Source: a virus. Taken from it: a DNA stretch of 26,446 nucleotides. Location of the stretch: positions 1 through 26,446 of the IMG/VR virus record IMGVR_UViG_3300045136_000191; one strand, given 5' to 3'. Below the pieces are notes generated by a model, which saw only the letters and a list, made by a program, of their open reading frames with translations, was not told the origin of the DNA and ran no database searches. The translations under genes and the position numbers were made by a program. Positions 1 to 19,137 of this stretch are shown piece after piece. Every line of letters starts with the position of its first letter. The first letter of the stretch is position 1.

Positions 1-335
1 GTCAACAGATAATCGGCGGACGTTTCGTTTAGGCGAGTATGCAATGTATTCAATACATTTGTGACATCGTTGTCGGAGATTGTGCCGGATGGCATAGCGG
101 TCGCGTCGGTTATAAGCATGCATATTCCTTTACCTTCGATGGCGGTAATCGCTAATTCTCGACAGCATGCCCAATCGGGATCACGCCAGGTCTGGCCGGT
201 GAAGGGATCAACAATCCAACCGCAATCCTCAAGTGCGACGATAGCTTGCGGAGAAAGCGCCAGCGGCAATCCCTCCTCGCTCGCCAGTTGCAAGATTTCA
301 GATATTCGATTGTCGGTATCTTGTGCCGTGCTCAT
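1..335 (-). CDS. Hypothetical protein, 3' end cut by window edge
   Basis: An open frame runs leftward from an ATG at 333-335 and leaves the window without a stop, giving at least 111 residues that begin MSTAQDTDNRISEILQLASE. The product looks soluble and acidic, with a tryptophan-containing patch (FTGQTWRDPDW) around residues 44-54 and no membrane segment. I recognise no family. The start is chosen as the first ATG; its Shine-Dalgarno is weak (GTGAG about 6 nt upstream). A weak promoter could lie upstream on the minus strand (TTGAAT at 392-387, 17-nt spacer, TACACG at 369-364); its -35 would fall inside the long palindrome at 384-430, which could act as operator. The gene has the same direction as the sigma/FtsK/ParB block at the other end of the window. 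Confidence 0.55.
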   Translation of the reverse strand, partial: MSTAQDTDNRISEILQLASEEGLPLALSPQAIVALEDCGWIVDPFTGQTWRDPDWACCRELAITAIEGKGICMLITDATAMPSGTISDNDVTNVLNTLHTRLNETSADYLL

Positions 336-383
336 AAAGTCTCACTTTCTAAAAACGTCGATGCGTGTACCACCCTACGCCTG

Positions 384-430
384 GCCATTCAACTTTCACT
401 GTCATCGGATGACAGTGAAAGTTGAATGGC
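384..430. repeat. Perfect 23-bp-arm palindrome (copy 1 of shared palindromic element)
   Basis: Arms 384-406 and 408-430 are exact reverse complements around a single G at 407. The inner core, 396-418 (TCACTGTCATC, G, GATGACAGTGA), occurs again at 26071-26093, but the outer parts of the arms differ completely between the copies while staying self-complementary. It lies between the minus-strand gene at 1-335 and the structured RNA region at 431-550. It could be an operator, a partition-type site or an inserted palindromic element; sequence alone does not decide. Confidence 0.9.
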
Positions 431-550
431 TCCGGTCTGCGCCGCAGCGGAGGAAAAAGGGGAAATAGAGAAGTGTAGCGCTCAGAATTAGGAGGATGCT
501 GCGACGCAGACCGGAATGATGAGCGACTGCGTTAAACAGTCGCTCTTTTT
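431..550 (+). ncRNA. Candidate structured small RNA ending in a terminator
   Basis: A 17-bp long-range stem pairs 431-447 with 499-515 with one mismatch. It encloses about 50 nt of purine-rich, apparently unpaired sequence, and is followed at once by the terminator hairpin at 521-550. No convincing gene fits inside; an 8-codon frame after an AGGAGG at 490-495 is very short. The loop contains AGCGGAGGAAAA (446-457), which recurs in the second short-RNA candidate at 5941-5952. I see no good plus-strand promoter upstream, so this may instead be the 3' end of a transcript entering from the left. The structure is seen; the RNA itself is inferred. Confidence 0.45.
521..550 (+). terminator. Rho-independent terminator upstream of int
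   Basis: A 9-bp perfect stem (GAGCGACTG, 521-529, with CAGTCGCTC, 537-545) has a 7-nt loop and is followed by five T at 546-550. It insulates the integrase gene from plus-strand transcription from the left. The int promoter begins immediately after it. Confidence 0.85.
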
Positions 551-551
551 G

Positions 552-560
552 TGCTACACT
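552..560 (+). promoter_or_regulatory. Extended -10 promoter for integrase
   Basis: TG at 552-553 followed by C and TACACT at 555-560 makes an extended -10 element. The -35 region (TTAAAC, 532-537, 17-nt spacing) is poor and lies within the preceding terminator hairpin. The layout TG-C-TANNNT recurs at 2622, 5880, 13252 and, on the minus strand, 13201. Confidence 0.5.
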
Positions 561-634
561 GGAGTTGCGATGACATCAGTGCGGACACCTGTACAAGAAG
601 TTTTCCATTTCACAACTACAACAGGAGTCCGATC

Positions 635-1522
635 ATGCTGTATAGTGAAGCAATTTCGTTATATCGCACGTATTTACGTTCACGTCGTCGCGCAACCAAG
701 ACGCTGGCGTGGTACGCAGAGCAATTTGCAGCGTTTGCGTCCTGGCGTGGCAAGGATGGCGATCTGCCAGATGTCGAGGAAATCGAGCGATTTCTCGCCG
801 ATTGCCACGACGCCGGCCTGTCGCCGTCCACCGTCCACGCCCGCTATCGTGCGCTCAAGGCGCTGTTCCGGTTTCTGGAAAAGCGCCGGAAGATCGACCG
901 TGACGCCAATCCGATCTTGATGCTGGAAGCGCCGTCTGTGCCGAAGACGGTACGCCCATACGTCACGTTGCCGGAGCTGCGCCAGTTGCTGGCGACGTGC
1001 GGTGATGACTGGATCGGGCAACGAGATCGGCTGATCCTGTTGTTGCTGTTTTTCAGTGGGCTGCGATTGAGTGAGATTGCCGCGCTCCAGGTTGGTGATC
1101 TCGATGCGGCGGCGCTGGAGGTGGTGGTGCGACGTGGTAAAGGCGACAAGGCGCGCGTGGTGCCAATGTCGCCGGAAGTGCGCCCGGCATTGACGGCGTA
1201 CCTGTTCCAGCGGCCGGAGCATCGTGATGAGTTGTGGCTCGCTTCCGATGGCTACGGCGGCGTGACCGGTGCGCTCAAGCCTGAAGGCATCCGCCAGATG
1301 ATCTTCCGCCGGTGCAAGCGTGCCGGGTTGCCGAAATTCGGGCCACATCGCTTCCGTCATGGCTTTGCGATGTGGATGCTCAATAACGGCGCGCGGCTGA
1401 CGACGGTCGCCACGGCGATGGGTCACAGCGACCCGGCGATCACGGCGTCCGTCTATGCGCACACGACGGCGAGCACAGTGCGCAGCGAGTACGATGCGGC
1501 GCTGGCGACCCTGACCAGATGA
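635..1522 (+). CDS. int: Tyrosine-family site-specific integrase
   Basis: This 295-residue protein is a phage integrase that catalyses recombination between attP and the host att site. Residues 1-95 form a SAM-like core-binding domain (YRTYLRSRRRATKTLAWY, then SPSTVHARYRALKALFRFL). The catalytic domain shows the family's residues: R144 (SGLRLSEIAAL), a lysine near 169 (RRGKGDK), H238 and R241 (HRFRH), H264 (MGHSDP) and the nucleophile Y274 (SVYAH). I chose ATG 635 because AGGAG at 623-627 precedes it at good spacing; an upstream GTG at 551 in the same frame lies inside the promoter. It reads toward the attachment site 65 nt downstream, the usual int-attP arrangement. Length and motifs are complete, so it should be active. 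Confidence 0.96.
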   Translation: MLYSEAISLYRTYLRSRRRATKTLAWYAEQFAAFASWRGKDGDLPDVEEIERFLADCHDAGLSPSTVHARYRALKALFRFLEKRRKIDRDANPILMLEAPSVPKTVRPYVTLPELRQLLATCGDDWIGQRDRLILLLLFFSGLRLSEIAALQVGDLDAAALEVVVRRGKGDKARVVPMSPEVRPALTAYLFQRPEHRDELWLASDGYGGVTGALKPEGIRQMIFRRCKRAGLPKFGPHRFRHGFAMWMLNNGARLTTVATAMGHSDPAITASVYAHTTASTVRSEYDAALATLTR

Positions 1523-1587
1523 TTGTAGATCAGGTGTTCTCCAGAGAGAAAAACGGCTGATCTGCACCCTGTCAACGGTTTGATCCG

Positions 1588-1634
<47 letters not shown>

Positions 1635-1635
1635 T

Positions 1636-1717
1636 CACCTTACAGCCCTTATGCGGTTGTAAAGGTGCGTTTCTAGGGCGTCCGATCCGTCGTTGTTCAG
1701 GTGGGCGGGTCGGACGC
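1636..1717. repeat. Inverted repeats beside the att core
   Basis: Two hairpins follow the tRNA fragment. 1636-1667 pairs CACCTTACAGCC with GGTTGTAAAGGTG with one bulge and one wobble. 1678-1689 pairs with 1706-1717 over 12 bp with one wobble. A further 7-bp repeat (AGATCAG 1527-1533, CTGATCT 1557-1563) lies between int and the core. They may be arm-type integrase or excisionase sites, or the int terminator, although no T-run follows. The rest of 1523-1723 shows no gene. Confidence 0.5.
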
Positions 1718-1723
1718 TCGGAA

Positions 1724-1921
1724 TCACGATTGCAATACAGTCCAGTCCAGCTTGATGCCCTTGCGGTTGGCATAGTCGATCACATGTTGCTTCTCGACTC
1801 TGCGCCAGCCGTCGTCGGTGATTCGCACACTCGGCAATTCACCATTATCGATCAGGCGTCTGACTGTATCTGGACTCACGCCGAAAAGCTTTGCTATTTC
1901 GGGTGGTGTCAGATACTCCAT
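1724..1921 (-). CDS. xis: Excisionase-like helix-turn-helix protein
   Basis: This 65-residue protein is almost all one MerR/excisionase-type winged helix: LTPPEIAKLFGVSPDTVRRL at residues 4-23, then the wing (ELPSVRITDDGWRRVEKQHV). It matches the HTH_17 family of small excisionases and DNA-binding regulators in size and pattern. An AAGGAG stands about 7 nt before the ATG. It is transcribed leftward toward attP and convergently with int, the common layout for an integration-excision switch. A strong promoter at 1966-1994 drives it. It could instead be a simple transcription regulator; location favours an excisionase role. Confidence 0.72.
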   Translation of the reverse strand: MEYLTPPEIAKLFGVSPDTVRRLIDNGELPSVRITDDGWRRVEKQHVIDYANRKGIKLDWTVLQS

Positions 1922-1965
1922 TGTGATCTCCTTATGTGTACCACATTTGCTAATTTTACGAGATT

Positions 1966-1994
1966 AGATTACACCCGATCAGGGCGATTGTCAA
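1966..1994 (-). promoter_or_regulatory. Sigma-70 promoter for xis-like gene
   Basis: On the minus strand, TTGACA (1994-1989), a 17-nt spacer and TAATCT (1971-1966) make a near-consensus promoter. The expected start near 1959 gives a leader of about 38 nt to the ATG at 1921. It is one of only two promoters here with a full TTGACA. Confidence 0.8.
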
Positions 1995-2028
1995 TCCTCA
2001 ATTGCCCGATTGCGAAAGGAATTGATCC

Positions 2029-2433
2029 ATGCCCAAACAGCAGATGATCATCCTGGAAGGCGATGGCACGTATCAGATCGAGGTCGTTGGTGAATCTCGT
2101 TACTGGGACAACCTACGCAAGCTGGCCGGTTCGTGCGAAAACAACGCTGTCGAAGTGATCAAAACCGCGTACTTGGTGCCGGAACCGCGCAATCCCAACG
2201 ATCCCAATGCCGTGCGTGTGGAGATTGACCGTCTGACTGTCGGCTATCTGCCCAGATCGGTCGCTGCTAAGCTATCGCCGCTGCTACGTGCGCGCCAGAT
2301 AGTCGCCGTGCAAGCGACAGCGCGAATTACTGCGTTCGAGGGCGCCAACAATTACAGCGTGTGGGTAGATGGCGACATTGACGAAATTCTGCATAGGTTT
2401 TCGCCAGCGCGTCCGTGGTGGCGCGTCTGGTGA
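2029..2433 (+). CDS. Stand-alone HIRAN-domain protein
   Basis: The 134-residue product has the HIRAN pattern. VVGESRYWDNLRKLAG (residues 19-34) starts the domain; LVPEPRNPNDPNAVRVEI (49-66) holds the conserved N-P-x-D-x-N-A-V stretch; VGYLPRSVAAKLSPLL (71-86) follows. HIRAN domains bind DNA, in the eukaryotic HLTF helicase single-stranded 3' ends, and stand-alone bacterial and phage forms are thought to recognise damaged or unusual DNA. The ATG has AAGGAA upstream. The last residues (SPARPWWRVW) are encoded by the left arm of a 19-bp perfect inverted repeat whose loop holds the stop codon. It lies divergent from xis, in the lysogeny and att region. Its function in this phage is unknown. Confidence 0.75.
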   Translation: MPKQQMIILEGDGTYQIEVVGESRYWDNLRKLAGSCENNAVEVIKTAYLVPEPRNPNDPNAVRVEIDRLTVGYLPRSVAAKLSPLLRARQIVAVQATARITAFEGANNYSVWVDGDIDEILHRFSPARPWWRVW

Positions 2434-2453
2434 GGCGCCACCACGGACGCGCT
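2406..2453. repeat. 19-bp perfect inverted repeat spanning the HIRAN stop codon
   Basis: Arms 2406-2424 and 2435-2453 are exact reverse complements around a 10-nt loop (2425-2434) containing the TGA at 2431-2433. As RNA this is a very stable, GC-rich hairpin, but it lacks a T-run. It may stabilise the 3' end of the mRNA or add to the two terminators that follow immediately. Confidence 0.9.
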
Positions 2454-2488
2454 CTTGGACCCGGGTCGATTGACTAGGCTTTTTTGTT
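2452..2488 (+). terminator. Terminator repeat R1
   Basis: An imperfect 7-bp stem (CCGGGTC, GATT loop, GACTAGG) is followed by six T. The 37-nt unit starting CTCTTGGACCC is repeated almost exactly at 2531-2568, 79 bp downstream. Confidence 0.65.
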
Positions 2489-2530
2489 CGATAGCCCTCA
2501 AAGCCCCACGACCACTCACCCATAACGAAA
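2488..2530 (+). other. 43-nt antisense copy of tail gene segment 18909-18951
   Basis: The reverse complement of 2488-2530 matches 18909-18951 at 42 of 43 positions; the one difference is G for C at the eleventh base. That segment encodes FVMREWSWGFEGYR in the tail-tip protein at 18367-19137. A plus-strand transcript reading through R1 would therefore carry 43 nt complementary to that tail mRNA, enclosed by two terminator hairpins. Position and identity are seen directly; an antisense role is inferred. It could equally be a recombination scar. Confidence 0.85.
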
Positions 2531-2568
2531 CTCTTGGACCCGAGTCGATTGACCCGGCTTTTTTTGTT
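2531..2568 (+). terminator. Terminator repeat R2
   Basis: This is the second copy of the R1 unit, with three substitutions and one extra T. The stem is CCGAGTC, GATT loop, GACCCGG, with one A-C mismatch and a seven-T tail. It closes the HIRAN transcription unit before the next promoter. Confidence 0.75.
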
Positions 2569-2621
2569 GCCGCAGCGCGGGAATTCCTGTCCTGCTGACG
2601 ATTCCGTAAGCAGCACATTTA

Positions 2622-2630
2622 TGCTATGAT
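2622..2630 (+). promoter_or_regulatory. Extended -10 promoter for the terminase region
   Basis: TG at 2622-2623, C, then TATGAT at 2625-2630. The -35 region (TTCCGT at 2602-2607) is poor. A start near 2637 gives a leader of about 37 nt with a strong AGGAGG before the ATG at 2674. It follows the tandem terminators, so it is probably the start of the unit running through TerL. Confidence 0.6.
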
Positions 2631-2673
2631 GTTATTGTACATAGAATCATTCGGTATGGAATGAGGAGGATCG

Positions 2674-2955
2674 ATGTCTACGAACGCGTTGCCTGGCGTG
2701 GTGTGGGTGGTTCTGATTTTGGCGCTGATCCCCGGCGTGCAGGGTGTCCTGGAGCGATTTTTCCCATCTGCGGAGTATTGGTATAGCGCTCTAATCGTGG
2801 CGGTGCTGGGAGCGATTGCGAAGGCGATTGAGGTGTGGGCGCGCCAGCAGGGGATGCAGATCGAGGTGAGCGATGGTGCTCCCACGCCGCTGGCGGCGCT
2901 GGCGGCGAGCGAGGTAGCGCCGCCGGGAAAACTATGGCGCTGGTTGTTTGGCTAA
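2674..2955 (+). CDS. Small two-helix membrane protein, holin-like
   Basis: The 93-residue product has hydrophobic segments at about residues 8-26 (GVVWVVLILALIPGVQGVL) and 37-53 (YSALIVAVLGAIAKAIE), then a polar tail. An ideal AGGAGG lies 5 nt before the ATG. Size and two membrane segments fit a holin or superinfection-exclusion protein, but no specific family is recognised. It is the first gene after the promoter at 2622 and precedes the HNH and terminase genes, an unusual site for a holin, since no endolysin is nearby. Confidence 0.6.
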   Translation: MSTNALPGVVWVVLILALIPGVQGVLERFFPSAEYWYSALIVAVLGAIAKAIEVWARQQGMQIEVSDGAPTPLAALAASEVAPPGKLWRWLFG

Positions 2956-2986
2956 TTACCTGAGCTAATGGTAGGAGTTGAATCGT

Positions 2987-3337
2987 ATGCCGACCAAAGC
3001 GCCGACGGCGTGTGTGCGACCTGGCTGCGCCGGGTTGGTACGCGCTGGCGTATGTTCGGTGTGTGGCAATCTACGCAGGCGCACGGTTGCCGAGCATGAT
3101 AAGCGGCGCGGTAGCCGCCACGAGCGCGGCTACGATGCACGATGGGAGCGGGTGCGCCGAATGCACCTGGCCAAAGAGCCGCTATGCCGAATGTGTGGTA
3201 GACCTGCCGTCCTGGTCGATCACATCACGCCGATACGCGACAACGGCGCAGTGCTCGACGATGACAACCTGCAATCCTTGTGCAGGCGATGCCATGATGC
3301 GAAGACTGCCAATGATTTGCGCAAGCGTGCCGGGTAG
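2987..3337 (+). CDS. HNH endonuclease
   Basis: The 116-residue product has an N-terminal cysteine cluster (CVRPGC then CSVCG) and a C-terminal HNH domain: CRMCG at about 68-72, LVDHITPI (the DH of the motif), DDDNLQSLCRRCHDAKT with N and the final H, and CxxC zinc ligands. Such nucleases sit directly before terminase in many HK97-like phages and work with the packaging motor in making cohesive ends. The start is ATG 2987 with GTAGGAG at 2971-2977; a TTG at 2978 in frame is less likely. A gap of about 100 nt with no recognisable feature separates it from TerS. The neighbouring terminase genes support a packaging role rather than a homing endonuclease. Confidence 0.88.
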   Translation: MPTKAPTACVRPGCAGLVRAGVCSVCGNLRRRTVAEHDKRRGSRHERGYDARWERVRRMHLAKEPLCRMCGRPAVLVDHITPIRDNGAVLDDDNLQSLCRRCHDAKTANDLRKRAG

Positions 3338-3439
3338 GGGGTGCAAATGTTGGGGAGATTGGCGCACAGTACCGGCGCCGCAGCACTGCGCACGCAAAAC
3401 CGAGTTTTCGACCAAAAGTGCATGGGAGGGAATTAGCGC

Positions 3440-3892
3440 ATGGGCGCACGTGGCCCACTACCGAGAAAGCGAACAACAGGGCAAGCTGCTACGGGTACGG
3501 GCAAACGGCGGCTGCGCAGGCTGCCGGACGATGTCGACGCAATCTTTCGGCGGCTGGTGCGAGACATTGAAAATCTGAACGCGGGGGACGCGGCGCTGAT
3601 CGAGGATATGGCGCGGTGGCTGGCGATTGCGAAGCGAGCATATGCTGACCTGCACGTCGGCGGGAAGATGGCGCTGACGGTGACGGACACGGCGCACGGC
3701 AACAAAGAGGAGAGCCGGAAAAATCCGCTCCTGATCGTGCTGCGGACGGCGAGCGAACAGCTACGCGCCAACGCCCAGCAGCTCGGCGCGTCACCAATGG
3801 CGCGCGCGCGGCTGCCTGAACGCGAACAGGAACAGCTAAGCATAGCCGATATTCTGTTCGCAGATGTCAATGCTGATCACGATGGGTTGTGA
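3440..3892 (+). CDS. terS: Terminase small subunit, P27-like
   Basis: The 150-residue protein begins MGARGPLPRKRTTGQAATG, the N-terminal signature of the P27 family of small terminase subunits. A helical region with LNAGDAALIEDMARWLAIAKRAY (about 46-68) and a conserved middle NPLLIVLRTASEQLRANAQQLG (about 95-116) follow. It recognises phage DNA and recruits the large subunit to start packaging. GGGAGGG lies about 10 nt before the ATG. Its stop overlaps the GTG start of TerL by 4 nt, indicating translational coupling. Confidence 0.88.
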   Translation: MGARGPLPRKRTTGQAATGTGKRRLRRLPDDVDAIFRRLVRDIENLNAGDAALIEDMARWLAIAKRAYADLHVGGKMALTVTDTAHGNKEESRKNPLLIVLRTASEQLRANAQQLGASPMARARLPEREQEQLSIADILFADVNADHDGL

Positions 3893-5433
3893 ATTGGTTT
3901 GACGAACGCGCCGCAACGGTGGCTGAACGATTCTTTGACCGAATGCTGGTGCACATAGAAGGCCCACTAGCCGGTAAGCCGTTCGTGTTGGAACCATGGC
4001 AGCGGGCGATCGTGCGTGAATTGTTCGGGCGGAAGGTGGGCAAGCTGCGTCAGTATCGCAAGCTCTATTTGGAAGTGCCGCGCGGAAACGGCAAAAGCAC
4101 CTTTGCGGCAGGGCTGGCGCTTTATTTGTTGTCGGTGGATGGAGAGCAATCGGCGAAGATATACAGCGCAGCGGCTGACCGGGAGCAGGCGAGCATCGTT
4201 TTTGAAACGGCGGAGAAGATGGTTAAGGCGTCGCCGTTTTTGTCAAGCCGGATCAGGACGTATCGCAATAGGACGATGGTTTACGAGGCAACGGGCAGCA
4301 AATATATTGCGCTGAGTTCCGACGCTTACACAAAGCATGGCCTTAACCCACACGGCATCGTATTTGATGAGCTACACGCACAGCCAAATCGGGAGTTGTA
4401 CGACGTGCTCAACACGGCGATGGGCAAGCGCAGCCAGCCGTTGATGATCATGATCACGACGGCTGGCTATGATCGAAATTCAATTTGCTGGCAACAGCAC
4501 GAGTACGCCCGTCAGGTGGCGGCGGGCATTATCGATGATCCGACATTCTATTCGGTGATTTATGCAGCGCCAGAAGACGCCGACTGGACCGACCCGGCTA
4601 CCTGGCGCATGGCAAATCCAAACTACGGCGTCAGCGTGCATGAGGAATTTCTGCGCCAAGAATGCGAGGTGGCAAAGGCAATACCCGCTTATCAAAACAC
4701 GTTTCGGCGTCTTTATCTGAATCAGTGGACGCAACAGGAGAGTCGCTGGATCGACATGCAGGCGTGGGATAAGTGTGCGACGGCACTGCCGGACTTGAGC
4801 GGTCGGGTATGCTATGGCGGGCTTGATTTGGCTTCGACAACGGATATTGCGGCGCTGGCGCTGGCGTTTCCTCCAAATGCGGAAGGGGAGCCGTTTTACT
4901 TGCTGCCCTTGTTCTGGATTCCTGAGGAGCGCATGATTGAACGTGAACGCCGGGATCGGGTTCCTTACTCGACCTGGGTGCGCCAGGGGCTGGTGACGGC
5001 GACGCCGGGCAATGTGATCGATTACGCCTATATCCGCCAGCAGATCAACGAGTTGGCGAAGGTGTACGACCTGCGAGAGGTGGCGTTCGATCCGTGGAAT
5101 GCTACGCAGTTGTCGGTTCAACTCCAGGACGATGGGATCAATATGATTGAGATGCGTCAGGGGTTTGCAAGCCTGAGCGGGCCGTCCAAGGAGTTTCTGC
5201 GGCTGGTGCTGGCGGGCTTGGTGGCGCATGGCGGCAACCCGGTGTTGCGCTGGATGGCGGACAATGTGGTGACGCGCCAAGACCCGGCAGGCAACGTGAA
5301 GCCGGATAAAAGCAAGAGCATGAACCGGATCGATGGGATCGTGGCGAGTGTGATGGCAATCGGGCGGGCGATGCTGGCGAACCCGAAGGCGGGACGGTCG
5401 ATCTATGAAGACCGCGGCATAATGCTGATATGA
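3889..5433 (+). CDS. terL: Terminase large subunit (packaging ATPase and nuclease)
   Basis: The 514-residue product is a full-length Terminase_1-type motor. The ATPase domain shows Walker A PRGNGKST at 64-71, Walker B GIVFDE at 156-161 and a coupling motif (MIMITTAGYD, about 186-195). The RNase H-like nuclease domain begins with GGLDLASTTD (D313) and includes FDPWNATQL and a late acidic residue in NRIDGIVASVMA (about 484). It translocates DNA into the prohead through the portal and cuts it. The GTG start overlaps the TerS stop. In typical order the portal follows directly downstream on the same strand; here two small ORFs, a promoter-RNA-terminator unit and then a reversed head module follow. 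Confidence 0.96.
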   Translation: MNWFDERAATVAERFFDRMLVHIEGPLAGKPFVLEPWQRAIVRELFGRKVGKLRQYRKLYLEVPRGNGKSTFAAGLALYLLSVDGEQSAKIYSAAADREQASIVFETAEKMVKASPFLSSRIRTYRNRTMVYEATGSKYIALSSDAYTKHGLNPHGIVFDELHAQPNRELYDVLNTAMGKRSQPLMIMITTAGYDRNSICWQQHEYARQVAAGIIDDPTFYSVIYAAPEDADWTDPATWRMANPNYGVSVHEEFLRQECEVAKAIPAYQNTFRRLYLNQWTQQESRWIDMQAWDKCATALPDLSGRVCYGGLDLASTTDIAALALAFPPNAEGEPFYLLPLFWIPEERMIERERRDRVPYSTWVRQGLVTATPGNVIDYAYIRQQINELAKVYDLREVAFDPWNATQLSVQLQDDGINMIEMRQGFASLSGPSKEFLRLVLAGLVAHGGNPVLRWMADNVVTRQDPAGNVKPDKSKSMNRIDGIVASVMAIGRAMLANPKAGRSIYEDRGIMLI

Positions 5434-5442
5434 GGTTGTGCT

Positions 5443-5733
5443 GTGTCAAGAGAGATGCTGCCGACGGAGCGGGTGGCGCTGGCAACGTGGTTGCTGGTGC
5501 AAGGACAGGCGATTACTGTGCGCCAACTTGCAAAAAGGCTGGAGATTACGCCGCGCGGGGCAAGGATGATGTTGGAGAAAATGAGCGGTGTGCTGCCGTT
5601 GACGGTGGAAGAGGGTGATGACGGCGGACTGTGGCAGATTTGTGGAAGAAATTGGGTAGATGAGCCGTGGGAAGTGGAAGTATGGCAAAATGGCGAAGAG
5701 GTGGCAGGCGGCGGTCGGCGCGGTGGGTGGTGA
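5443..5733 (+). CDS. Winged-helix DNA-binding protein
   Basis: The 96-residue product has a helix-turn-helix pattern at about residues 9-45: VALATWLLVQGQAITVRQLAKRLEI, then TPRGARMMLEKMS, which looks like a small winged helix of the kind used by transcription regulators. A variable, tryptophan-rich tail follows (GLWQICGRNW, EPWEVEVW). The GTG start is 9 nt after the terL stop, so the gene is co-transcribed. A regulator placed directly after terminase and before the 5860 promoter might control that promoter or the reversed head operon; this is inference. Confidence 0.6.
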   Translation: MSREMLPTERVALATWLLVQGQAITVRQLAKRLEITPRGARMMLEKMSGVLPLTVEEGDDGGLWQICGRNWVDEPWEVEVWQNGEEVAGGGRRGGW

Positions 5734-5739
5734 TCTGGT

Positions 5740-5874
5740 ATGATCGTGGGCCACAGGGTGACGATTCAGGGGCGGCTGTTATCGGACCCGGGCTGGCGTC
5801 GGCTGGGGTCGCAGACGATCACGGCGGAGCAGGCATTGACCAGGCTGATGGCGAGGGACTTGACAAAGCTCTGA
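5740..5874 (+). CDS. Small ORF, unknown function
   Basis: A 44-codon frame starts at an ATG 6 nt after the previous stop and ends in the middle of the 5860 promoter. The product begins MIVGHRVTIQGRLLSDPGW and ends ALTRLMARDLTKL. No family is recognised. The close spacing and continuous strand suggest a real gene; its short length keeps confidence low. The promoter's -35 element is coding sequence for its last residues. Confidence 0.42.
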   Translation: MIVGHRVTIQGRLLSDPGWRRLGSQTITAEQALTRLMARDLTKL

Positions 5875-5888
5875 TCGTTTGCTATACT
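5860..5888 (+). promoter_or_regulatory. Near-consensus sigma-70 promoter
   Basis: TTGACA at 5860-5865, a 17-nt spacer and TATACT at 5883-5888, with TG at 5880-5881 as an extended -10. This is the best plus-strand promoter in the window. It drives only about 130 nt before a strong terminator, which points to a short RNA. Confidence 0.85.
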
Positions 5889-5894
5889 ATACGC

Positions 5895-6028
5895 TGGATC
5901 AGCGTTCCGTGCATTGTGGCGCCATGCCAGCGCCCGCAGAAGCGGAGGAAAATCGGGACGCTTTGTAAAAAGGATGCCGTTTTTTTATTTGTTTAGCGCC
6001 GTGGGGTAAATCCCTGCGGCGCTTTTTT
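5895..6028 (+). ncRNA. Candidate small RNA between promoter and terminator
   Basis: The interval between the strong promoter and a strong terminator is about 134 nt. AGCGTTCCG (5901-5909) pairs with CGGGACGCT (5954-5962) with one wobble. Inside it GGCGC and GCGCC (about 5919-5935) can form a small hairpin, and AGCGGAGGAAAA at 5941-5952 repeats the loop sequence of the RNA candidate at 431-550. A possible 11-codon hydrophobic peptide (MPFFYLFSAVG) starts at 5974, so it could be a leader-peptide or small-protein mRNA instead. It lies exactly at the left border of the reversed head module. Promoter and terminator are seen; the RNA is inferred. Confidence 0.6.
5996..6028 (+). terminator. Strong Rho-independent terminator
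   Basis: An 11-bp stem (5996-6006 with 6012-6022, two G-U wobbles) closes a TAAAT loop and is followed by six T (6023-6028). It stops plus-strand transcription before the convergent minus-strand head operon. The TAA stop of the gene at 6027-6341 overlaps its T-run. Confidence 0.93.
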
Positions 6029-6341
6029 AGTCGCATTCGAGGATGGTGAAGATGTTGATGTCTGCGGCGATGTAGTGATAGAGGATAGTCGCGGCGCGGC
6101 TCAGCACGGCGATGGTCATGATGACGATCACGCCAGTGTTGATGTAGAAGAACGGCAATAATTGGCGGAAATATACCCCCAGGCTGAGATTGAAGAGCAT
6201 GAAGGCAAAGAAAACTGAGAGGCTGAAATAGAACAATGCGATAATGCGCTCACGGCGATTGTAGGCGATCAGGCCGAAGTAAAAATACGCCGGGAACATG
6301 AGGAAGTAACAGATTGCATGGATGGTTTCATCGATGCTCAT
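6027..6341 (-). CDS. Multi-spanning membrane protein, possible holin partner
   Basis: The 104-residue product has about three hydrophobic segments: 9-26 (AICYFLMFPAYFYFGLIA), 33-54 (IIALFYFSLSVFFAFMLFNLSL) and 62-82 (LPFFYINTGVIVIMTIAVLS). It overlaps the coiled-coil membrane protein upstream by 4 nt (ATGA) and is the last gene of the minus-strand head operon. No specific family is recognised. A pair consisting of a coiled-coil single-span protein and a multi-span protein resembles some phage lysis cassettes, so a holin role is possible. Confidence 0.58.
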   Translation of the reverse strand: MSIDETIHAICYFLMFPAYFYFGLIAYNRRERIIALFYFSLSVFFAFMLFNLSLGVYFRQLLPFFYINTGVIVIMTIAVLSRAATILYHYIAADINIFTILECD

Positions 6342-6631
6342 TTAATTCGCTCCAGTATATACAATCCCAGCATGAGCGCGCTGAGCGCAAAGCTGGTCAG
6401 AAATAGCCACATCTGCATTTTATTCAATGCGCCGTTCGTGTGGCGCTGATAGAAGCGCAGAAGGTATTCGAGCTGCTGTAATTCACGGCTGGCTTGCTCC
6501 ATGCGGTAGATGGCGGCCTGTGTTTCTGCATCAGGTCTCGCCAGGCTGAGCATGCGTTCGATGTCGCTGATCTGCGTTTCCAGAAAGTGGATTCTGCGCC
6601 GCACATCTGGAAAATCGTAATCGACGGCCAT
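6338..6631 (-). CDS. Coiled-coil protein with C-terminal membrane helix, XhlA-like
   Basis: From the ATG at 6631 the protein has 97 residues. Residues about 10-60 are a heptad-rich coiled coil (IHFLETQISDIERML, then MEQASRELQQLEYLLRF), and about 74-93 form one membrane helix (MWLFLTSFALSALMLGLYIL) followed by a short basic end. This layout matches the XhlA type of phage haemolysin/holin helper. The ATG at 6631 begins 7 nt after the stop of the upstream gene; a longer in-frame start at 6730 would overlap that gene heavily and is unlikely. Family assignment rests on architecture, not on sequence motifs. Confidence 0.6.
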   Translation of the reverse strand: MAVDYDFPDVRRRIHFLETQISDIERMLSLARPDAETQAAIYRMEQASRELQQLEYLLRFYQRHTNGALNKMQMWLFLTSFALSALMLGLYILERIK

Positions 6632-6638
6632 TTTGCTG

Positions 6639-6998
6639 TCAAGTGACGCGGCTTTCGCCCACCAGTTCCTCGCAGGTGAGGGTAACGAGGCGACGTCGGT
6701 TGTCGGGTTCGCCGATGGCGAGGATGGCAAAGTAGCGGCTGGCGCCTTCGATCAGCCAACGCAGTCGGCTTTTGGTGGTGAGGCTGACGCCCGCGGGCAG
6801 TGGCCAGCGCAGCGTGACTTCGTGGGCGGCGACGGGGATGACCAGCTCCTGGCGCTGGCGTTCGTTGCCGGAGATGGTGCGCACGCGGGCGCGTAGCTGA
6901 GGCGAGTCCGTCCAGGTGATGGTTTCGGCGCCGCGGTCGCTGCGTGAGGTGGTGGGCGTCTGGATGTAGACGGTATGGCGCAATTCGGCGATCTTCAT
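6639..6998 (-). CDS. Head closure / head-tail joining protein
   Basis: The 119-residue product begins MKIAELRHTVYIQTPTTSRS and contains the hallmark SPQLRARVRTISGNERQRQ and LRWLIEGASRYFAILAIGEPDNRRRLVTLTCEEL of the SPP1 gp16 / Phage_H_T_join group. It seals the head after packaging and forms the surface to which the tail attaches. Its start overlaps the upstream connector gene by 4 nt. In most siphoviruses the gp10-like gene follows directly; here that gene is at 13267 on the other strand. Confidence 0.82.
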   Translation of the reverse strand: MKIAELRHTVYIQTPTTSRSDRGAETITWTDSPQLRARVRTISGNERQRQELVIPVAAHEVTLRWPLPAGVSLTTKSRLRWLIEGASRYFAILAIGEPDNRRRLVTLTCEELVGESRVT

Positions 6999-7567
6999 GT
7001 GGCGTAGCCCCAGTGCATTTTGAGCGCATTTTGCAGGCGGCTGCGCTGCTGGTTGGCGGTGGTGGAAATTGCCTCACGATTCTCGTAGTCAACGGCGACC
7101 AGCCCCAGGATCAGGCGCTTGTAATCGGAGGGTACGTCGTCGGCAAGACCGTAGCCTGCGACGTAGCGCACTCGGATCGGGGCGTGGCTGCGCAGTGCGA
7201 CGTCGGGCCAGCTTTTGCCCTGTGCGGACGTGAGAATGGGCGGCGTGAGGTCGGCGATCAACTGGTAGTCGGTGTCGGGAATGGTGACGGTCGTTCCGTC
7301 GTCGGTGACGTAAGTGACGCTGATGATCGATTGCACCGGCGGATATTCCAGGCGGATGACGCCATCGGCGGGCCAAACCGAAAGTACCATTTCCCGGGTC
7401 TGGGTGATGAAGCTGCGCGCGGCCAGCATCTGCGCTTCGAGCGTGGCAGCCTCGATCAATTGAGTGATCAGTGCGTCGTCGGCGCTGTGGTCAATCAGCA
7501 GTGTGCTCTTGGCTTCGGCAAGCGTGACCGGCGTGACGGCGGGCGGCGTAATGATGTTGCTTGGCAT
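6995..7567 (-). CDS. Head-tail connector, gp6/gp15-like adaptor
   Basis: The 190-residue product has the pattern of the HK97 gp6-like connector: an N-terminal helical part (VTLAEAKSTLLIDHSADDALITQLIEAATLEAQ, about 15-47), a beta-rich middle (LEYPPVQSIISVTYVTDDGTTV, then Y-Q-L) and a C-terminal RVRYVAGYGLADDVPSDYKRLILGLVAVDYENRE. These form a ring under the portal. It lies 21 nt after the glycosyltransferase-like gene and overlaps the head-closure gene. Confidence 0.88.
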   Translation of the reverse strand: MPSNIITPPAVTPVTLAEAKSTLLIDHSADDALITQLIEAATLEAQMLAARSFITQTREMVLSVWPADGVIRLEYPPVQSIISVTYVTDDGTTVTIPDTDYQLIADLTPPILTSAQGKSWPDVALRSHAPIRVRYVAGYGLADDVPSDYKRLILGLVAVDYENREAISTTANQQRSRLQNALKMHWGYAT

Positions 7568-7588
7568 ATGTCCATTCCTTTGGGTCGA

Positions 7589-8458
7589 TCATTTGGTGCG
7601 CTTCCTCCGCTGCGCCGGGACGGTTGCCTGTTCGGGCGATTCGATGACGGCGCGCTCGACGGCGGGTTCTGGTTCGGGTTCGGTAGGGCGGATGCGCACG
7701 TAGCCAGCGCGTTCCAGATCATAGGCTTCGGCCATTGTGACGGTGTAGCGCATTCCAGCCGTGAGCCGCATCGGTTTGCCGTCGATGAAGACGGTGACGT
7801 CTTCGAGCGCCTCGACGCGCATCATGGTGGTTGTGTCGTCGTAGGGCATGAGCAATTGTCCTTCTGTGTTGAAATGCCCGCAGGGAATGTCGAAGCGGCC
7901 GTAGGCGATGACGCCAGCGCGCAGACAATCCATTGCGAATTGAATATCGCCAGTCGGATTGCTGCCGTTGCCGCTGTGGAGCGGGATGCGCTCCAGCACA
8001 TTGCGATGGATGAGCGTGCAACCCCAGCCGCAGCCGGAGATGCGTCCGACGCCAGCCTGCCGATAGCGGGCCAGCTCACGCGGATAGAGTGTGAGCGACA
8101 TGCCAAGGCTGTTTTCGCCGCAGTACTGCCAGGTGCTGAGCGAATAGTTGCCGTGGCGCAGCACGTATGGTGCATAGACCACGCCGGCGCCTGTGGTGTC
8201 GGCGAGCTTCTGTAGAGCGTCGGGCGGGAGCACCATGTCATGCTCGACGGTGACGAGTGCGTCGTAGCCGCCGGCAAGCGCAAGGCGTTGGGCGCGCTGA
8301 TATTTCGCCAGCACGTTGCGATGGTCTGGCGGTGGGAATGGGTCATCGGCATCGATGACCCATTCCCACTCGTGCGTGGTCTGCTGCGCTTCGATGGACG
8401 CTCTGCACTGTGGGTGCAGGGCGTCATCGTACGTTGGCGTGTAGACCAAAATCTTCAT
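7589..8458 (-). CDS. Glycosyltransferase-like protein inside the head operon
   Basis: The 289-residue product begins MKILVYTPTYDDALHPQC, like family 2-type GT-A folds. It has DADDPFPPPDHRN near 37-49, VEHDMVLPPDAL near 70-81 (EHD in the place of the metal-binding DxD), VGRISGCGWGCTLIHR near 139-154 and GDIQFAMDCLRAG near 169-181. Residues 200-289 add a small beta-rich part (TVFIDGKPMRLTAGMRYTV) and a polar, glutamate-proline-rich tail. Its start overlaps the capsid stop by 1 nt. The site between capsid and connector suggests that it modifies capsid or another virion protein, but donor and acceptor are unknown. Confidence 0.72.
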   Translation of the reverse strand: MKILVYTPTYDDALHPQCRASIEAQQTTHEWEWVIDADDPFPPPDHRNVLAKYQRAQRLALAGGYDALVTVEHDMVLPPDALQKLADTTGAGVVYAPYVLRHGNYSLSTWQYCGENSLGMSLTLYPRELARYRQAGVGRISGCGWGCTLIHRNVLERIPLHSGNGSNPTGDIQFAMDCLRAGVIAYGRFDIPCGHFNTEGQLLMPYDDTTTMMRVEALEDVTVFIDGKPMRLTAGMRYTVTMAEAYDLERAGYVRIRPTEPEPEPAVERAVIESPEQATVPAQRRKRTK

Positions 8459-9681
8459 CAGGCAGTCGGATGGCGGCCGTACAGGATCGCTTCTGGCTGC
8501 AGCACCTTGTACGCGATGCGCGTGTAGTAGTGCAGCACGACTTGGCCGTAGCGTGCGCGGCTGTATGGATCGCGCAGGAAGGTCAGCGCGGTCGAGCGAC
8601 GCCCCATGTAGCCAAAATTGCCGAAGAGAATCGATTTGTTACCGGCGCCAACGGCAGGCATGGTTTCGTCCTCGTTCCAAAGCGGATATTTCCACAACGT
8701 GGCGCCGGTGGGGCCGACGACTGGGGCGCCCGCTGGCGTTTCGGCGAAGAGGAAATCACTGCCCTGCAGTTTGCGGATGGCGCCTTCTGTGGCGCGGCGC
8801 ATGACCCATTGCGCAGACGGCGAATGGCGTCCCTTCAGCGCGTAGACAAGCGTCGGCACATCGGCGGCGCTGACAGTAGCAGCGGCGGCCAGCGTGACGC
8901 TGGTGCCATTGGTAAGCGCCTCGGTGATGAGCGCATTGTTATGCGTCAGGCCGAGGGCCTCGCCGACGTAGAAGTTGAGGAAGGTCATCAGATTTGATCC
9001 TTCGTCGTACATCAGTTCGTCGGACAGTTCAATGGCTTTGGTGAATTTGACCAGCGTCATCTGCGCGCGGCCAATTTCAGGCGCATCGCGGTCAGACAGA
9101 GAGGCCTCGTTGGTTGACACGAAAACATTGGTTGTTCCGGCTTGCACGGGTACGTTGAGCGTAGTGCCGCCTTCGGGTGCGAAGGGCATGACACCCAGTC
9201 GTTCGGCCAGCGCGATGCTGTTGGCTTTGGCGATGATGCCAGTGTAGTGCGCGGTGGGTACCAGATAGCCGCCGTCGGCTGGCGTGGTGATGTTCATGTC
9301 GGTATCGTTACTGGCGCGCAGTTCGGCGCGCATCTGCGCATCCATCTCACGGATAGCGCCCTCGTCGCCCCGCACGTAGAGGCGCACGGCTCGCAGTTCT
9401 GCCTGTTTGCGGTCGTCGCCAGCGTAGCGCAGCACTACGGGCGCCTGTGGCTGTGGCTGTGGCGCTGGCTGTGTACCTGGTTGCGAGCGCAGATCAATTG
9501 TGAGGCGGTCGATCTCTTCTTGCCGGTCAATCTGCGTTTTGAGCGCCTCGATTTGTGCTTTGAGCGCATCGTAGGCAGCCTGCTGTGTTTCGTCTAGCTG
9601 CGCGTCGCCAAAGCTGTCGTTGAGTTTTCGCAACTCATCAATCAGTTCGGCGCGTTTGCGGCGAAGTTCAAGAATGTCCAT
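8458..9681 (-). CDS. HK97-fold major capsid protein
   Basis: The 407-residue product has an N-terminal coiled-coil scaffold (delta) domain at about 1-65 (RRKRAELIDELRKLND, then a long helix to IDRLTIDLRS) and a proline/glutamine-rich linker, probably removed by the protease. The HK97 fold follows from about 115: GGYLVPTAHYTGIIAKANS (N-arm and start of E-loop), VSTNEASLSDRDAPEIGRAQM, a P-domain helix SDELMYDEGSNLMTFLNFYVGEAL, and an A-domain ending in YYTRIAYKVLQPEAIL. It assembles the icosahedral head. Residues 1-112 are encoded by the duplicated segment and are identical to the N-terminus of the chimeric ORF at 10278-10871. The protein itself is intact. Confidence 0.95.
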   Translation of the reverse strand: MDILELRRKRAELIDELRKLNDSFGDAQLDETQQAAYDALKAQIEALKTQIDRQEEIDRLTIDLRSQPGTQPAPQPQPQAPVVLRYAGDDRKQAELRAVRLYVRGDEGAIREMDAQMRAELRASNDTDMNITTPADGGYLVPTAHYTGIIAKANSIALAERLGVMPFAPEGGTTLNVPVQAGTTNVFVSTNEASLSDRDAPEIGRAQMTLVKFTKAIELSDELMYDEGSNLMTFLNFYVGEALGLTHNNALITEALTNGTSVTLAAAATVSAADVPTLVYALKGRHSPSAQWVMRRATEGAIRKLQGSDFLFAETPAGAPVVGPTGATLWKYPLWNEDETMPAVGAGNKSILFGNFGYMGRRSTALTFLRDPYSRARYGQVVLHYYTRIAYKVLQPEAILYGRHPTA

Positions 9682-9682
9682 G

Positions 9683-10294
9683 TCAATCCTCCATTGACAA
9701 AATTTCGATTGTGCGATGGCGCGCAGCCGCCCGGCTCCGCGCCTGTATCTCAGCAGCCTCCTGGCTGTCTAATTCTTTCTGACGTGCCATCTCCAGGGTG
9801 CGAGCAGCGACGATGGTGGCCTGATATGCAGGAAACGTGACGACGCTCACGTCGTAGAGCGAAAGGTTGCGCAGACGACGTAGACGCTGACCGTTTTCGG
9901 TGGTCCAGGTCTCGCCGCCCTTGCGCGTGCGGAAGGCGAAGCTCATCTGGTTCACGTCGCCGCGCTCGACCAGCATGTATACGTCGTTGGCGTAGGTGGT
10001 TGGCGGCAGAATGACAGCCATGCGCAACCCGTGCGCGTCTTCGGTCAGGGTGAGCGTGCCGTTGGTGGTGCGCCCCAGCACTAGGTTGGGATCGTGGTTG
10101 AACAGTGCGCGCACGTCGGGCGTCTCGGCGAGGGCTTCGCTGAATGCGCCAGGCTCGATCACCTCACGAAAGCCGCCGAGGTCCTCGGATAGGCTGTTAA
10201 AGACAACGGCGTAGCCCTCAAGCGTGCGCACTTCGCCATCGGCGGCGGCGCGCAGATTGACGGTGACGCAGCGGCGTTCAATTTCGTTGTTCAT
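9683..10294 (-). CDS. Prohead protease, copy A (next to capsid)
   Basis: The 203-residue product is an HK97 gp4 / peptidase U35-type protease that cleaves the capsid delta domain during maturation. Family features are TLEGYAVVFNSLSEDLGGFRE (about 24-44), VIEPGAF (45-51), ALFNHDPNLVLGR with the likely catalytic H67 (63-75), QMSFAF with the likely nucleophile S118, and LYDVSVVTFPAY (146-157). Its C-terminal tail is charged and helical. It ends 1 nt before the capsid start. Because of the duplication its upstream neighbour is the chimeric ORF, whose 3' end overlaps its start by 17 nt, exactly as portal overlaps copy B. Confidence 0.93.
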   Translation of the reverse strand: MNNEIERRCVTVNLRAAADGEVRTLEGYAVVFNSLSEDLGGFREVIEPGAFSEALAETPDVRALFNHDPNLVLGRTTNGTLTLTEDAHGLRMAVILPPTTYANDVYMLVERGDVNQMSFAFRTRKGGETWTTENGQRLRRLRNLSLYDVSVVTFPAYQATIVAARTLEMARQKELDSQEAAEIQARSRAAARHRTIEILSMED

Positions 10295-10871
10295 CGATCA
10301 ACTCCTTGACGGCTAACTGGCAGGCGGTGGCTACCCACTCGTTGACGTTCAGTTCGGTTGGTTGTACGGCGCGCAGTGGCGACAGCATGGCGTCGCCAGC
10401 TTGCCGCCATTCGTGCATCTGTTCTGCGCACCACTCGGACAGCCGTTGGCGACCGCCGGTGCGCAGGGCTTTAGCGCCGCCCTGCCGGACATCATTGGCG
10501 ATGCGGGCGTGCAGGCGGTTGCGCACGTCGGCGATCTCACGGATAGCGCCCTCGTCGCCCCGCACGTAGAGGCGCACGGCTCGCAGTTCTGCCTGTTTGC
10601 GGTCGTCGCCAGCGTAGCGCAGCACTACGGGCGCCTGTGGCTGTGGCTGTGGCGCTGGCTGTGTACCTGGTTGCGAGCGCAGATCAATTGTGAGGCGGTC
10701 GATCTCTTCTTGCCGGTCAATCTGCGTTTTGAGCGCCTCGATTTGTGCTTTGAGCGCATCGTAGGCAGCCTGCTGTGTTTCGTCTAGCTGCGCGTCGCCA
10801 AAGCTGTCGTTGAGTTTTCGCAACTCATCAATCAGTTCGGCGCGTTTGCGGCGAAGTTCAAGAATGTCCAT
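10278..10871 (-). CDS. Chimeric ORF: capsid N-terminus fused to portal C-terminus
   Basis: This 197-codon frame is a by-product of the tandem duplication. Residues 1-112 are identical to the capsid scaffold domain plus linker (MDILELRRKRAELIDEL to GAIRE), and about residues 113-197 are identical to portal from about residue 427 (ADVRNRLHARIAND to KELIDEQRN). The join falls at 10534-10536 and happens to stay in frame. It keeps the capsid start signals, so it could be translated. It could make a free scaffold domain carrying a portal tail, or simply be junk. It is not a recognised gene type. Confidence 0.8.
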   Translation of the reverse strand: MDILELRRKRAELIDELRKLNDSFGDAQLDETQQAAYDALKAQIEALKTQIDRQEEIDRLTIDLRSQPGTQPAPQPQPQAPVVLRYAGDDRKQAELRAVRLYVRGDEGAIREIADVRNRLHARIANDVRQGGAKALRTGGRQRLSEWCAEQMHEWRQAGDAMLSPLRAVQPTELNVNEWVATACQLAVKELIDEQRN

Positions 10872-10872
10872 G

Positions 10873-11484
10873 TCAATCCTCCATTGACAAAATTTCGATT
10901 GTGCGATGGCGCGCAGCCGCCCGGCTCCGCGCCTGTATCTCAGCAGCCTCCTGGCTGTCTAATTCTTTCTGACGTGCCATCTCCAGGGTGCGAGCAGCGA
11001 CGATGGTGGCCTGATATGCAGGAAACGTGACGACGCTCACGTCGTAGAGCGAAAGGTTGCGCAGACGACGTAGACGCTGACCGTTTTCGGTGGTCCAGGT
11101 CTCGCCGCCCTTGCGCGTGCGGAAGGCGAAGCTCATCTGGTTCACGTCGCCGCGCTCGACCAGCATGTATACGTCGTTGGCGTAGGTGGTTGGCGGCAGA
11201 ATGACAGCCATGCGCAACCCGTGCGCGTCTTCGGTCAGGGTGAGCGTGCCGTTGGTGGTGCGCCCCAGCACTAGGTTGGGATCGTGGTTGAACAGTGCGC
11301 GCACGTCGGGCGTCTCGGCGAGGGCTTCGCTGAATGCGCCAGGCTCGATCACCTCACGAAAGCCGCCGAGGTCCTCGGATAGGCTGTTAAAGACAACGGC
11401 GTAGCCCTCAAGCGTGCGCACTTCGCCATCGGCGGCGGCGCGCAGATTGACGGTGACGCAGCGGCGTTCAATTTCGTTGTTCAT
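10873..11484 (-). CDS. Prohead protease, copy B (next to portal)
   Basis: This copy is identical at the amino-acid level to copy A over all 203 residues, with the same H67 and S118 motifs. It overlaps the 3' end of portal by 17 nt, the arrangement expected in the ancestral operon. It is followed by the chimeric ORF instead of by full capsid. Both copies look functional, so gene dosage of the maturation protease would be doubled. Confidence 0.93.
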   Translation of the reverse strand: MNNEIERRCVTVNLRAAADGEVRTLEGYAVVFNSLSEDLGGFREVIEPGAFSEALAETPDVRALFNHDPNLVLGRTTNGTLTLTEDAHGLRMAVILPPTTYANDVYMLVERGDVNQMSFAFRTRKGGETWTTENGQRLRRLRNLSLYDVSVVTFPAYQATIVAARTLEMARQKELDSQEAAEIQARSRAAARHRTIEILSMED

Positions 11485-13185: not shown

Positions 13186-13192
13186 GGCTTCC

Positions 13193-13201: not shown

Positions 13202-13209
13202 GTCGGCGG

Positions 13210-13243: not shown

Positions 13244-13251
13244 TTGCGCGT

Positions 13252-13260: not shown

Positions 13261-13266
13261 GGTGTC

Positions 13267-17377: not shown

Positions 17378-18367
17378 ATGATTCCACTTGGACAGATTAC
17401 GGGTGAGGTGCGCGACGTTCGAGAATGGACGTCGCAGATCGGAAGCACGGCGCCGACGATCAGCAACACAAAGGCGATGACAGGGGAGTATTCAGTAAGA
17501 TTTGCAGCAAACACAGCGTCGATCGGATTATCATTTCCATCTCAGAGCGGGTTGCGCTGTGGGACGTGGCTGAATCATGCCATGCCATCAGGGTCGTTTA
17601 CGGCACATTTGTTTCGATTGCGCATAGGCGTCACTGAAATTGTCCGGGTCCAGTGGGTCGGCAACGGTAATCTGCAATTGCTGATCAACGGTTCGGTCGT
17701 AGCAGAGATATCACCTCAAGCGACGGCAATTTCACAAACCAACACGTGGATTGCTTTGGGGCTAAGTTATATAGCCAATGAAACGGTGACGTTCTATGTC
17801 AACGGCCTGGCGCAGTTGAGATATGCTGCGCCCAATACGCCAATCAATGAGGCGTATATAGGCGGAGGTGTTTGGGGAAACTACGCCTACTTCGATGATT
17901 TCTACGTGGATGGCAACATCAGCGTAGATGAAGCGCCGCCGCCGGATCGATTTTTATTTAAGCTGGTGAATGATGTAGGAGCATCGTCGCAGTGGACGCC
18001 CGTTGGTGCGAGCAACAATTACCAGTGTGTGAATGATGCCGTGCCAAACAACGATACAAATTATGTGGTTGCGAATACGGCTAATCTGACCGATTTGTAC
18101 AAAACCACGAATGTCACGCTGCCGACGGACTACAAAGTATCGGCGGTGCTGCCGATTGCGCTGGCGCGTGCGATGGCGGCAGGCCCGACATTGCGGTTTG
18201 TGGCGAGTGATGGATCGAATACGACGATTAGGAATGAGCGTGCACCCGGTATGGCTTACACGTATCTTTGGGAATCGTTGAGCCAGGCGCCGGATGGCGG
18301 GGAGTGGACGGAGAGCAAAATCAACGCTACGCAGTTCGGCTATAGATCTGCTGGGATATTCAGCTAA
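17378..18367 (+). CDS. Tail-tip protein with LamG-like fold
   Basis: The 329-residue product follows the tape measure. Residues about 30-185 have the beta pattern of a laminin-G/concanavalin jelly roll: EYSVRFAANTASIGLSFPS, VTEIVRVQWVGNGNLQLLINGSVV, NTWIALGLSYIANETVTFYVNGLA and a closing YFDDFYVDG. Residues 190-329 form a second domain (WTPVGASNNYQCVNDAVPNN, TLRFVASDGSNTTIRNERAP) typical of phage surface proteins. It probably binds carbohydrate on the host or decorates the tail tip. It shares one base with the next gene (TAATG). No enzymatic motif is seen. Confidence 0.72.
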   Translation: MIPLGQITGEVRDVREWTSQIGSTAPTISNTKAMTGEYSVRFAANTASIGLSFPSQSGLRCGTWLNHAMPSGSFTAHLFRLRIGVTEIVRVQWVGNGNLQLLINGSVVAEISPQATAISQTNTWIALGLSYIANETVTFYVNGLAQLRYAAPNTPINEAYIGGGVWGNYAYFDDFYVDGNISVDEAPPPDRFLFKLVNDVGASSQWTPVGASNNYQCVNDAVPNNDTNYVVANTANLTDLYKTTNVTLPTDYKVSAVLPIALARAMAAGPTLRFVASDGSNTTIRNERAPGMAYTYLWESLSQAPDGGEWTESKINATQFGYRSAGIFS

Positions 18368-19137
18368 TGTCGATACGCGTAACGCAGGCCGGGGCGCTGG
18401 TGCGTCTGGTGGCCAATCGGAAGCTCATGGTCACGCAGGCGGGCGTGCTGGTGCGCGTCAGCCTGGTGCAGATTCGGGTGACGCAGGTGGGCGTGCTGGT
18501 GCGCGTCAGCCTGGTGCAGATTCGGGTGACGCAGGCGGGCGTGCTGGTGCGCTGCGCGCCAAAACTACCAACGCCGACCGAAAAAAGCTTGCTGATAACG
18601 GCTGCCACGCTCTACCGGGCGCCGCTTGGGGAGCCGGTGCCGGACGAGAATATTGGGTATGGCGAGGCGTGGGGCGGCAACTGGGTGCAACTGGGATATA
18701 CGCTGGAGCCGCTGCGCTTCTCGCTGGAGAGTGACCTGGTGCGGGTGCGAGTGGAGCAACTGCTGTCGGCGGTGCGCATTTTCCGCAGACAGGAAGGGCT
18801 TGTCATCCGCACGACGTTGGCGGAACTGACCAGCGACAATCTGGCGCTGGCGCTCGACGGTGCAATCACGGTCTTCGACAATTGTCAGATCATCGAAGCG
18901 GGCGGCGATTTCGTTATGCGTGAGTGGTCGTGGGGCTTTGAGGGCTATCGATTGAATAGCCGGGGCGATAAAGTGGCCGTGCGCGTTTTCGTGCATCGGG
19001 GAGTGGCGGTGCTGGATCAAACAATCACAATGGGCAGGGCGACGGCGACGGGCATACCGCTGCGCATTGAGGCGATTGCCGACATCACCAGGCCGCCGGG
19101 CAAACAGTTGATGGAAAGTCACATCGTAAGGACATAA
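18367..19137 (+). CDS. Repeat domain fused to a major-tail-protein paralogue
   Basis: Residues 1-68 hold short beta repeats of 16 residues (VTQAGVLVRVSLVQIR) with nearly identical DNA copies. Residues about 74-256 are clearly paralogous to the tail tube protein at 14170-14772, sharing ATLYRAPLGEPVPDE, WGGNWVQLGYTLEPL, NLALALDGAIT, WSWGFEGYR, GIPLRIEAI and PPGKQL; about half the residues match by eye. It may form a ring continuing the tube toward the tip, with the repeats projecting outward. The codons for FVMREWSWGFEGYR (18909-18951) are copied in antisense at 2488-2530. The gene is linked to both neighbours by TAATG overlaps. Confidence 0.82.
   Translation: MSIRVTQAGALVRLVANRKLMVTQAGVLVRVSLVQIRVTQVGVLVRVSLVQIRVTQAGVLVRCAPKLPTPTEKSLLITAATLYRAPLGEPVPDENIGYGEAWGGNWVQLGYTLEPLRFSLESDLVRVRVEQLLSAVRIFRRQEGLVIRTTLAELTSDNLALALDGAITVFDNCQIIEAGGDFVMREWSWGFEGYRLNSRGDKVAVRVFVHRGVAVLDQTITMGRATATGIPLRIEAIADITRPPGKQLMESHIVRT
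18430..18556 (+). repeat. In-frame 48-bp direct repeats
   Basis: Two full units (18430-18477 and 18478-18525) and a partial third (18526-18556) differ at only a few positions. A diverged unit starts at 18379. Each full unit encodes VTQ[AV]GVLVRVSLVQIR. The repeat number could vary between strains. Confidence 0.9.

Follow-up and report, generated by a model that had tools for sequence, protein, structure and literature searches.

A phage terminator probably duplicated by replicative strand switching around an inverted fragment of the phage's own tail gene

Introduction

Downstream of a HIRAN-domain gene in a phage genome, 43 nt that are almost perfectly complementary to the phage's own tail gene are held between two direct repeats. 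The layout is that of a repeat-spacer-repeat unit, and it raises the question of how a piece of a late gene came to lie there in inverted orientation and whether it does anything at that place. The window analyzed here is an entire IMG/VR virus record of 26,446 bases. An initial annotation of this DNA had called the repeats terminators and had offered three readings of the locus, namely, an antisense regulator of late genes, a device against related phages, or a relic of strand switching during replication. Our comparisons with related phages favor the last of these and suggest that the fragment probably has no function beyond termination.

Results

The two direct repeats around the 43 nt, referred to here as R1 and R2, proved to be as first described (Table 1). 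They are 91% identical over 34 nt, differing at 3 of the 34 positions and by one T in length, and their 3' ends consist of six or seven T's followed by a GTT common to both. The enclosed fragment agrees with the reverse complement of part of ttp2, a tail-tube-like protein gene, at 42 of 43 positions, the longest uninterrupted match being 32 nt; base 2488 (T) can be assigned either to R1 or to the fragment. The initial annotation held that a chance match of this length was not credible, and this is borne out. In 60 Markov-1 simulations of the record, which have the same dinucleotide content, the longest exact inverted self-match ranged from 13 to 22 nt, and BLAST self-comparison gave an E value of 1.5e-14. 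The match far exceeds chance.

Table 1. Positions of the repeats, the inverted fragment, its source, and the neighboring features in the record.
Feature	Position	Strand	Remarks
HIRAN-domain gene, upstream of the site	2029..2433	+	Pfam HIRAN, 4.6e-11; homologue (65% aa) at the same place in G017
Inverted repeat	2406..2453	.	2432-2453 is a reverse-complement copy of the HIRAN gene end (2406-2427); 95% complementary, 4-nt loop
R1, first terminator copy	2452..2488	+	Right stem arm altered (CC to TA); local hairpin, -5.7 kcal/mol
Inverted copy (43 nt) of tail-tube gene 2 (18909-18951)	2488..2530	-	42/43 match
R2, second terminator copy	2531..2568	+	Left stem arm altered (G to A); T7 tail; local hairpin, -6.6 kcal/mol
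Leader of the downstream gene	2569..2673	+	Conserved in G017 by alignment, including the ATGCTATGATGTT block
Membrane-like gene (93 aa), downstream	2674..2955	+	Homologue (78% aa) at the same place in G017
ttp2, tail-tube-like protein gene from which the fragment derives	18367..19137	+	Phage_TTP_17, 6.9e-5; homologue (61-62%) in G011
Source stretch of the 43-nt fragment	18909..18951	+	Codes FVMREWSWGFEGYR; 42/43 match

The Pfam match of ttp2 falls just under the gathering score, and the gene has a paralogue at 14170-14772. At the single base that distinguishes fragment and gene, the ttp2 homologue of the related phage G011 has the same base as the gene; therefore, the change most likely occurred in the copy. 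The source stretch lies in the middle of ttp2, away from the start site. We considered whether the fragment might be aimed at an exceptionally conserved stretch of ttp2 and rejected this idea, as it ranked only 141 of 726 windows in the comparison with G011. As a separate observation, the N-terminal part of ttp2 contains 48-nt tandem repeats (18429-18572), and the G011 homologue has repeats of its own in this part, in which a short motif resembles that of the record (ISQAAALVE in G011 and VTQAGVLVR in the record).

The state of the site without the fragment is found in a relative, G017 (contig L061; 33,177 bp with a 127-nt terminal repeat), which has homologues of both flanking genes (Table 1). 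Between them lies a single terminator, GCCGGGTC-GATT-GACCCGGC-TTTTTTGTTGCC, and no insert. This terminator, R0, has a perfect 8-bp stem followed by T6, with a folding energy of -20.2 kcal/mol, and its stem corresponds to the unmutated left arm of R1 joined to the unmutated right arm of R2. In R0, a GC-rich hairpin directly precedes the T-run, and R1 and R2 have the same layout with imperfect stems. The predicted terminator is placed directly after the stop codon of the HIRAN gene and before the leader of the next gene in both the record and G017. The similarity extends downstream, where 2544-2679 aligns at 88% with G017; the ATGCTATGATGTT block in the leader is a possible promoter, and the membrane-like protein that follows appears to be holin-like.

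Because G017 has one perfect hairpin and no insert between the same genes, the repeat reads as an ordinary intrinsic (Rho-independent) terminator and not as a CRISPR repeat. A pattern scan of IMG/VR points the same way: the core GTCGATTGAC-NN-GGCTTTTTT forms terminator-like hairpins in four more contigs, with GTC-GATT-GAC at L076:1668-1688, L078:1997-2017, L079:2211-2231, and L080:595-615, and terminators of relatives that have other stems share the same TTTTTTGTTG tail. Apart from a weak integrase match in L078, we detected no similarity between these four contigs and this phage, and the recurrence of the GTC-GATT-GAC core in otherwise dissimilar contigs suggests a favored terminator hairpin. 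A two-pattern scan of IMG/VR for the repeats returned only this virus, the empty relative, the terminators of the four other phages, and one contig (L005) in which the match is a coincidence in a coding region. Scans of IMG/VR with the fragment and with the HIRAN protein each matched only this virus, and a search with 2380-2680 against phages and plasmids returned nothing relevant. The description of the locus as two terminators therefore needs qualification: it suits the origin of the repeats better than their present strength, because the local hairpins of R1 and R2 are now weak compared with that of R0 (Table 1). In another genome of the group, G001, we observed a 78-nt terminator-plus-leader cassette in two copies with 97% identity (L042:383-460 and 8180-8257), a hint that terminator cassettes are copied around within this group.

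The 43-nt fragment is not the only inverted copy at this site. The end of the HIRAN gene is repeated in inverted orientation over 22 nt immediately next to R1, and the stop codon of that gene falls in the loop of the resulting hairpin. Thus, inverted copies flank R1 on both sides, and a hairpin lies at the breakpoint. By alignment, the 22-nt copy is not in G017, which has a different short hairpin there.

Larger rearrangements are present elsewhere in the record. From about 5750 to 13228, a 7.5-kb block of head genes (portal, protease, major head protein, glycosyltransferase-like, and adaptor) lies on the minus strand, inverted relative to the terminase and tail genes; in the relatives that cover it (G004, G011, and G017), this block is on the same strand as those genes. 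The left junction of the inversion is spanned by the contig L004 and the right junction by L032, and we found no inverted repeat at the junctions. Within the block, 9344-11726 is an exact tandem duplication (1,193 nt identical, with a spacing of 1,190) that covers the end of the portal gene, the protease gene, and the start of the head protein gene and yields a fused head-protein/portal reading frame (10278-10871). This duplication may be a matter of assembly, because both sister contigs either stop before or start after the region.

R1 and R2 can also pair with each other. Their long-range pairing produces 15 bp of stem around the fragment, with the T7 run immediately beyond it (-32 kcal/mol; z, -2.2; 4 of 200 shuffles were as good). 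At one position of this stem, both sides have changed in a compensatory manner, C-G to T-A, which would occur with a probability of ~0.6% under three random substitutions, although this was noticed post hoc. Any palindrome that is copied in direct orientation will yield two copies able to pair with each other. For these two reasons, we take the pairing only as a hint, either that R1 and R2 now form one composite terminator or that the copies have been partly corrected against each other.

Discussion

We consider it likely that a terminator was duplicated around an inverted tail fragment by replicative strand switching and that the fragment itself serves no function. Ancestrally, the HIRAN gene would have been separated from the late-side genes by a single Rho-independent terminator. 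One local rearrangement in this lineage, most likely a switch of strands by the polymerase at the hairpin during replication, would then have copied 43 nt from the opposite strand of the tail-tube gene and afterward the terminator a second time. The product would have been a terminator, an inverted tail fragment, and a terminator again, in which a few point changes arose later. Because the arms of the two copies pair with each other around the fragment, the copies may now act jointly as one larger terminator.

Among the three readings of the initial annotation, the relic of strand switching is thus the best supported. It agrees with the empty site in G017, and the record contains other rearrangements, namely, the neighboring 22-nt inverted copy, the 7.5-kb inversion, and the 1.19-kb tandem duplication. 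The insert is itself a copy of sequence present elsewhere in the same genome, in inverted orientation. The mutation load is also similar throughout the locus, with 1 change in the 43 nt of the fragment, compared with 3 substitutions and 1 indel for R1 and R2 taken together. In mutational terms, the locus is a templated inverted insertion of the template-switch type. It resembles MMBIR/FoSTeS-type insertions in that a short inverted copy of a distant stretch lies at a hairpin, local sequence is duplicated, and another inverted copy is adjacent; it differs from typical cases in having little or no microhomology at the junctions, in its location in a phage terminator, and in being polarized by one relative.

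Some observations count against this interpretation. Microhomology amounts to 1 nt at the first junction and 0 nt at the second, which is below what strand switching often leaves. The direction of the event, which we infer to be an insertion, is taken from a single relative, because G017 would also have a single copy had it lost the stretch between R1 and R2 by deletion; however, G017 does not have ttp2, and such a deletion is therefore less likely. Finally, the compensatory change in the paired repeats may be a sign of selection on the composite stem or of continued correction by strand switching. Overall, the locus illustrates a route to a repeat-spacer-repeat layout that involves no CRISPR system, and it provides a case of a short inverted self-copy in a phage terminator that is cleanly anatomized and for which the empty site is identified.

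The first alternative is that a host Cas1-Cas2 complex integrated a phage fragment off target at the terminator hairpin of the phage itself and thereby doubled 37 nt of target sequence, as happens to a repeat when a spacer is acquired. In size, 37 nt of duplicated sequence and 43 nt between the copies suit CRISPR repeats and spacers, and the near absence of microhomology at the junctions also counts in favor of this reading. Non-canonical spacer integration has reportedly been observed by Nivala et al. 2018. The present locus resembles an event of this type in its ~37-nt duplication, which was made at a palindrome and encloses ~43 nt, and differs from it in the second inverted copy that is adjacent. 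When Cas1-Cas2 integrates outside CRISPR loci, it prefers the vicinity of inverted repeats that can fold into cruciforms (PMC9180970), and for this reason we regard off-target integration as a live minority reading. We nevertheless judge it unlikely, since it leaves the adjoining 22-nt inverted copy unexplained and only one case was found. We also considered whether the flush joining of fragment and repeats speaks for an integrase, but this was dropped because one event of duplication and insertion necessarily produces such borders. Slightly less probable again is the fuller proposal that spontaneous integration of the tail fragment into the terminator palindrome by host Cas1-Cas2 created a new-born CRISPR-like unit, possibly kept for its fragment-displaying stem. 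If Cas1-Cas2 were responsible, the locus would show how virus-borne mini-arrays could start.

Antisense regulation is, in our estimate, similarly improbable. Read-through of R1 would put the 43 nt into the 3' end of the HIRAN transcript, R2 would end that transcript, and pairing with the tail mRNA, inside the coding region, would lower early tail expression; the stem formed by R1 and R2 would display the fragment in its loop. The 42/43 complementarity to the tail mRNA, the energy of that stem (-32 kcal/mol; z, -2.2), and the compensatory change (~0.006, post hoc) are what this proposal can draw on, and near-perfect complementarity to a late mRNA is indeed found in antisense RNA regulators of phage late genes. 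Unlike such regulators, however, the fragment is directed against the middle of a gene and not its start site, and we found no promoter for it: a scan of 1500-4000 for sigma-70-type promoters gave no match, and plus-strand transcription of the fragment would need read-through of R1. The pairing of the repeats is given by construction in copies of a palindrome, and the fragment has changed at about the rate of its flanks. Nor is the antisense pairing conserved: self-comparison of 18 other related records revealed no similar insert, and the site in G017 is empty. Beyond the hint from the pairing of the repeats, the proposal of an antisense regulator of late genes gained no positive support, since no promoter match was found, the target is not exceptionally conserved, and the insert has changed about as much as its flanks. 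If the fragment were expressed, it would amount to early-to-late antisense control acquired by accident.

A chimera of assembly or amplification is very unlikely. Inverted joins are a known artifact, the record is a metagenome contig, and an inversion and an exact tandem duplication are found elsewhere in it. However, the contig L004 (IMGVR_UViG_3300045922_001018) is identical to positions 1-9119, including the insert site, and 12594-23833 is covered by a sister contig of the same sample, L032, which departs from it only at two SNPs (17781 and 17871), although the reads of either contig are perhaps not independent of those of the record. The SNPs indicate that the contigs are not mere duplicates. 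Moreover, a fresh chimera would not show the divergence that is seen among the copies and between them and the source.

Least probable of all is a single-spacer mini-CRISPR array carried by the phage and directed at related phages, since the layout it shares with virus-borne mini-arrays (PMC6858448), in which two repeats flank one spacer-size, virus-derived, intergenic fragment without cas genes, is here made of diverged terminators (different at 3 of 34 positions plus an indel) that recur in phages without detected close kinship, with no leader recognized, a spacer that matches the carrier's own ttp2 at 42 of 43 positions, and no Cas1 found in the record (of the cas genes, Cas1 alone was looked for). 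A device against related phages likewise found no positive support: the search of related phages for the same repeats with other fragments gave none, and G017 has its single terminator and no insert.

Other features of the phage

The phage carries a full-length sigma-70 family gene (22350-23363; regions 1.2, 2, 3, and 4), which was not found in the relatives examined. At 384-430 lies a perfect palindrome of 47 nt; its 23-nt core, TCACTGTCATCGGATGACAGTGA, is found again within a ParB-like gene (26071-26093), and in the related genomes G019 and G020 a similar site of ~30 nt is present in three tandem copies upstream of the integrase gene. The palindrome is possibly a partition site or the binding site of a regulator.
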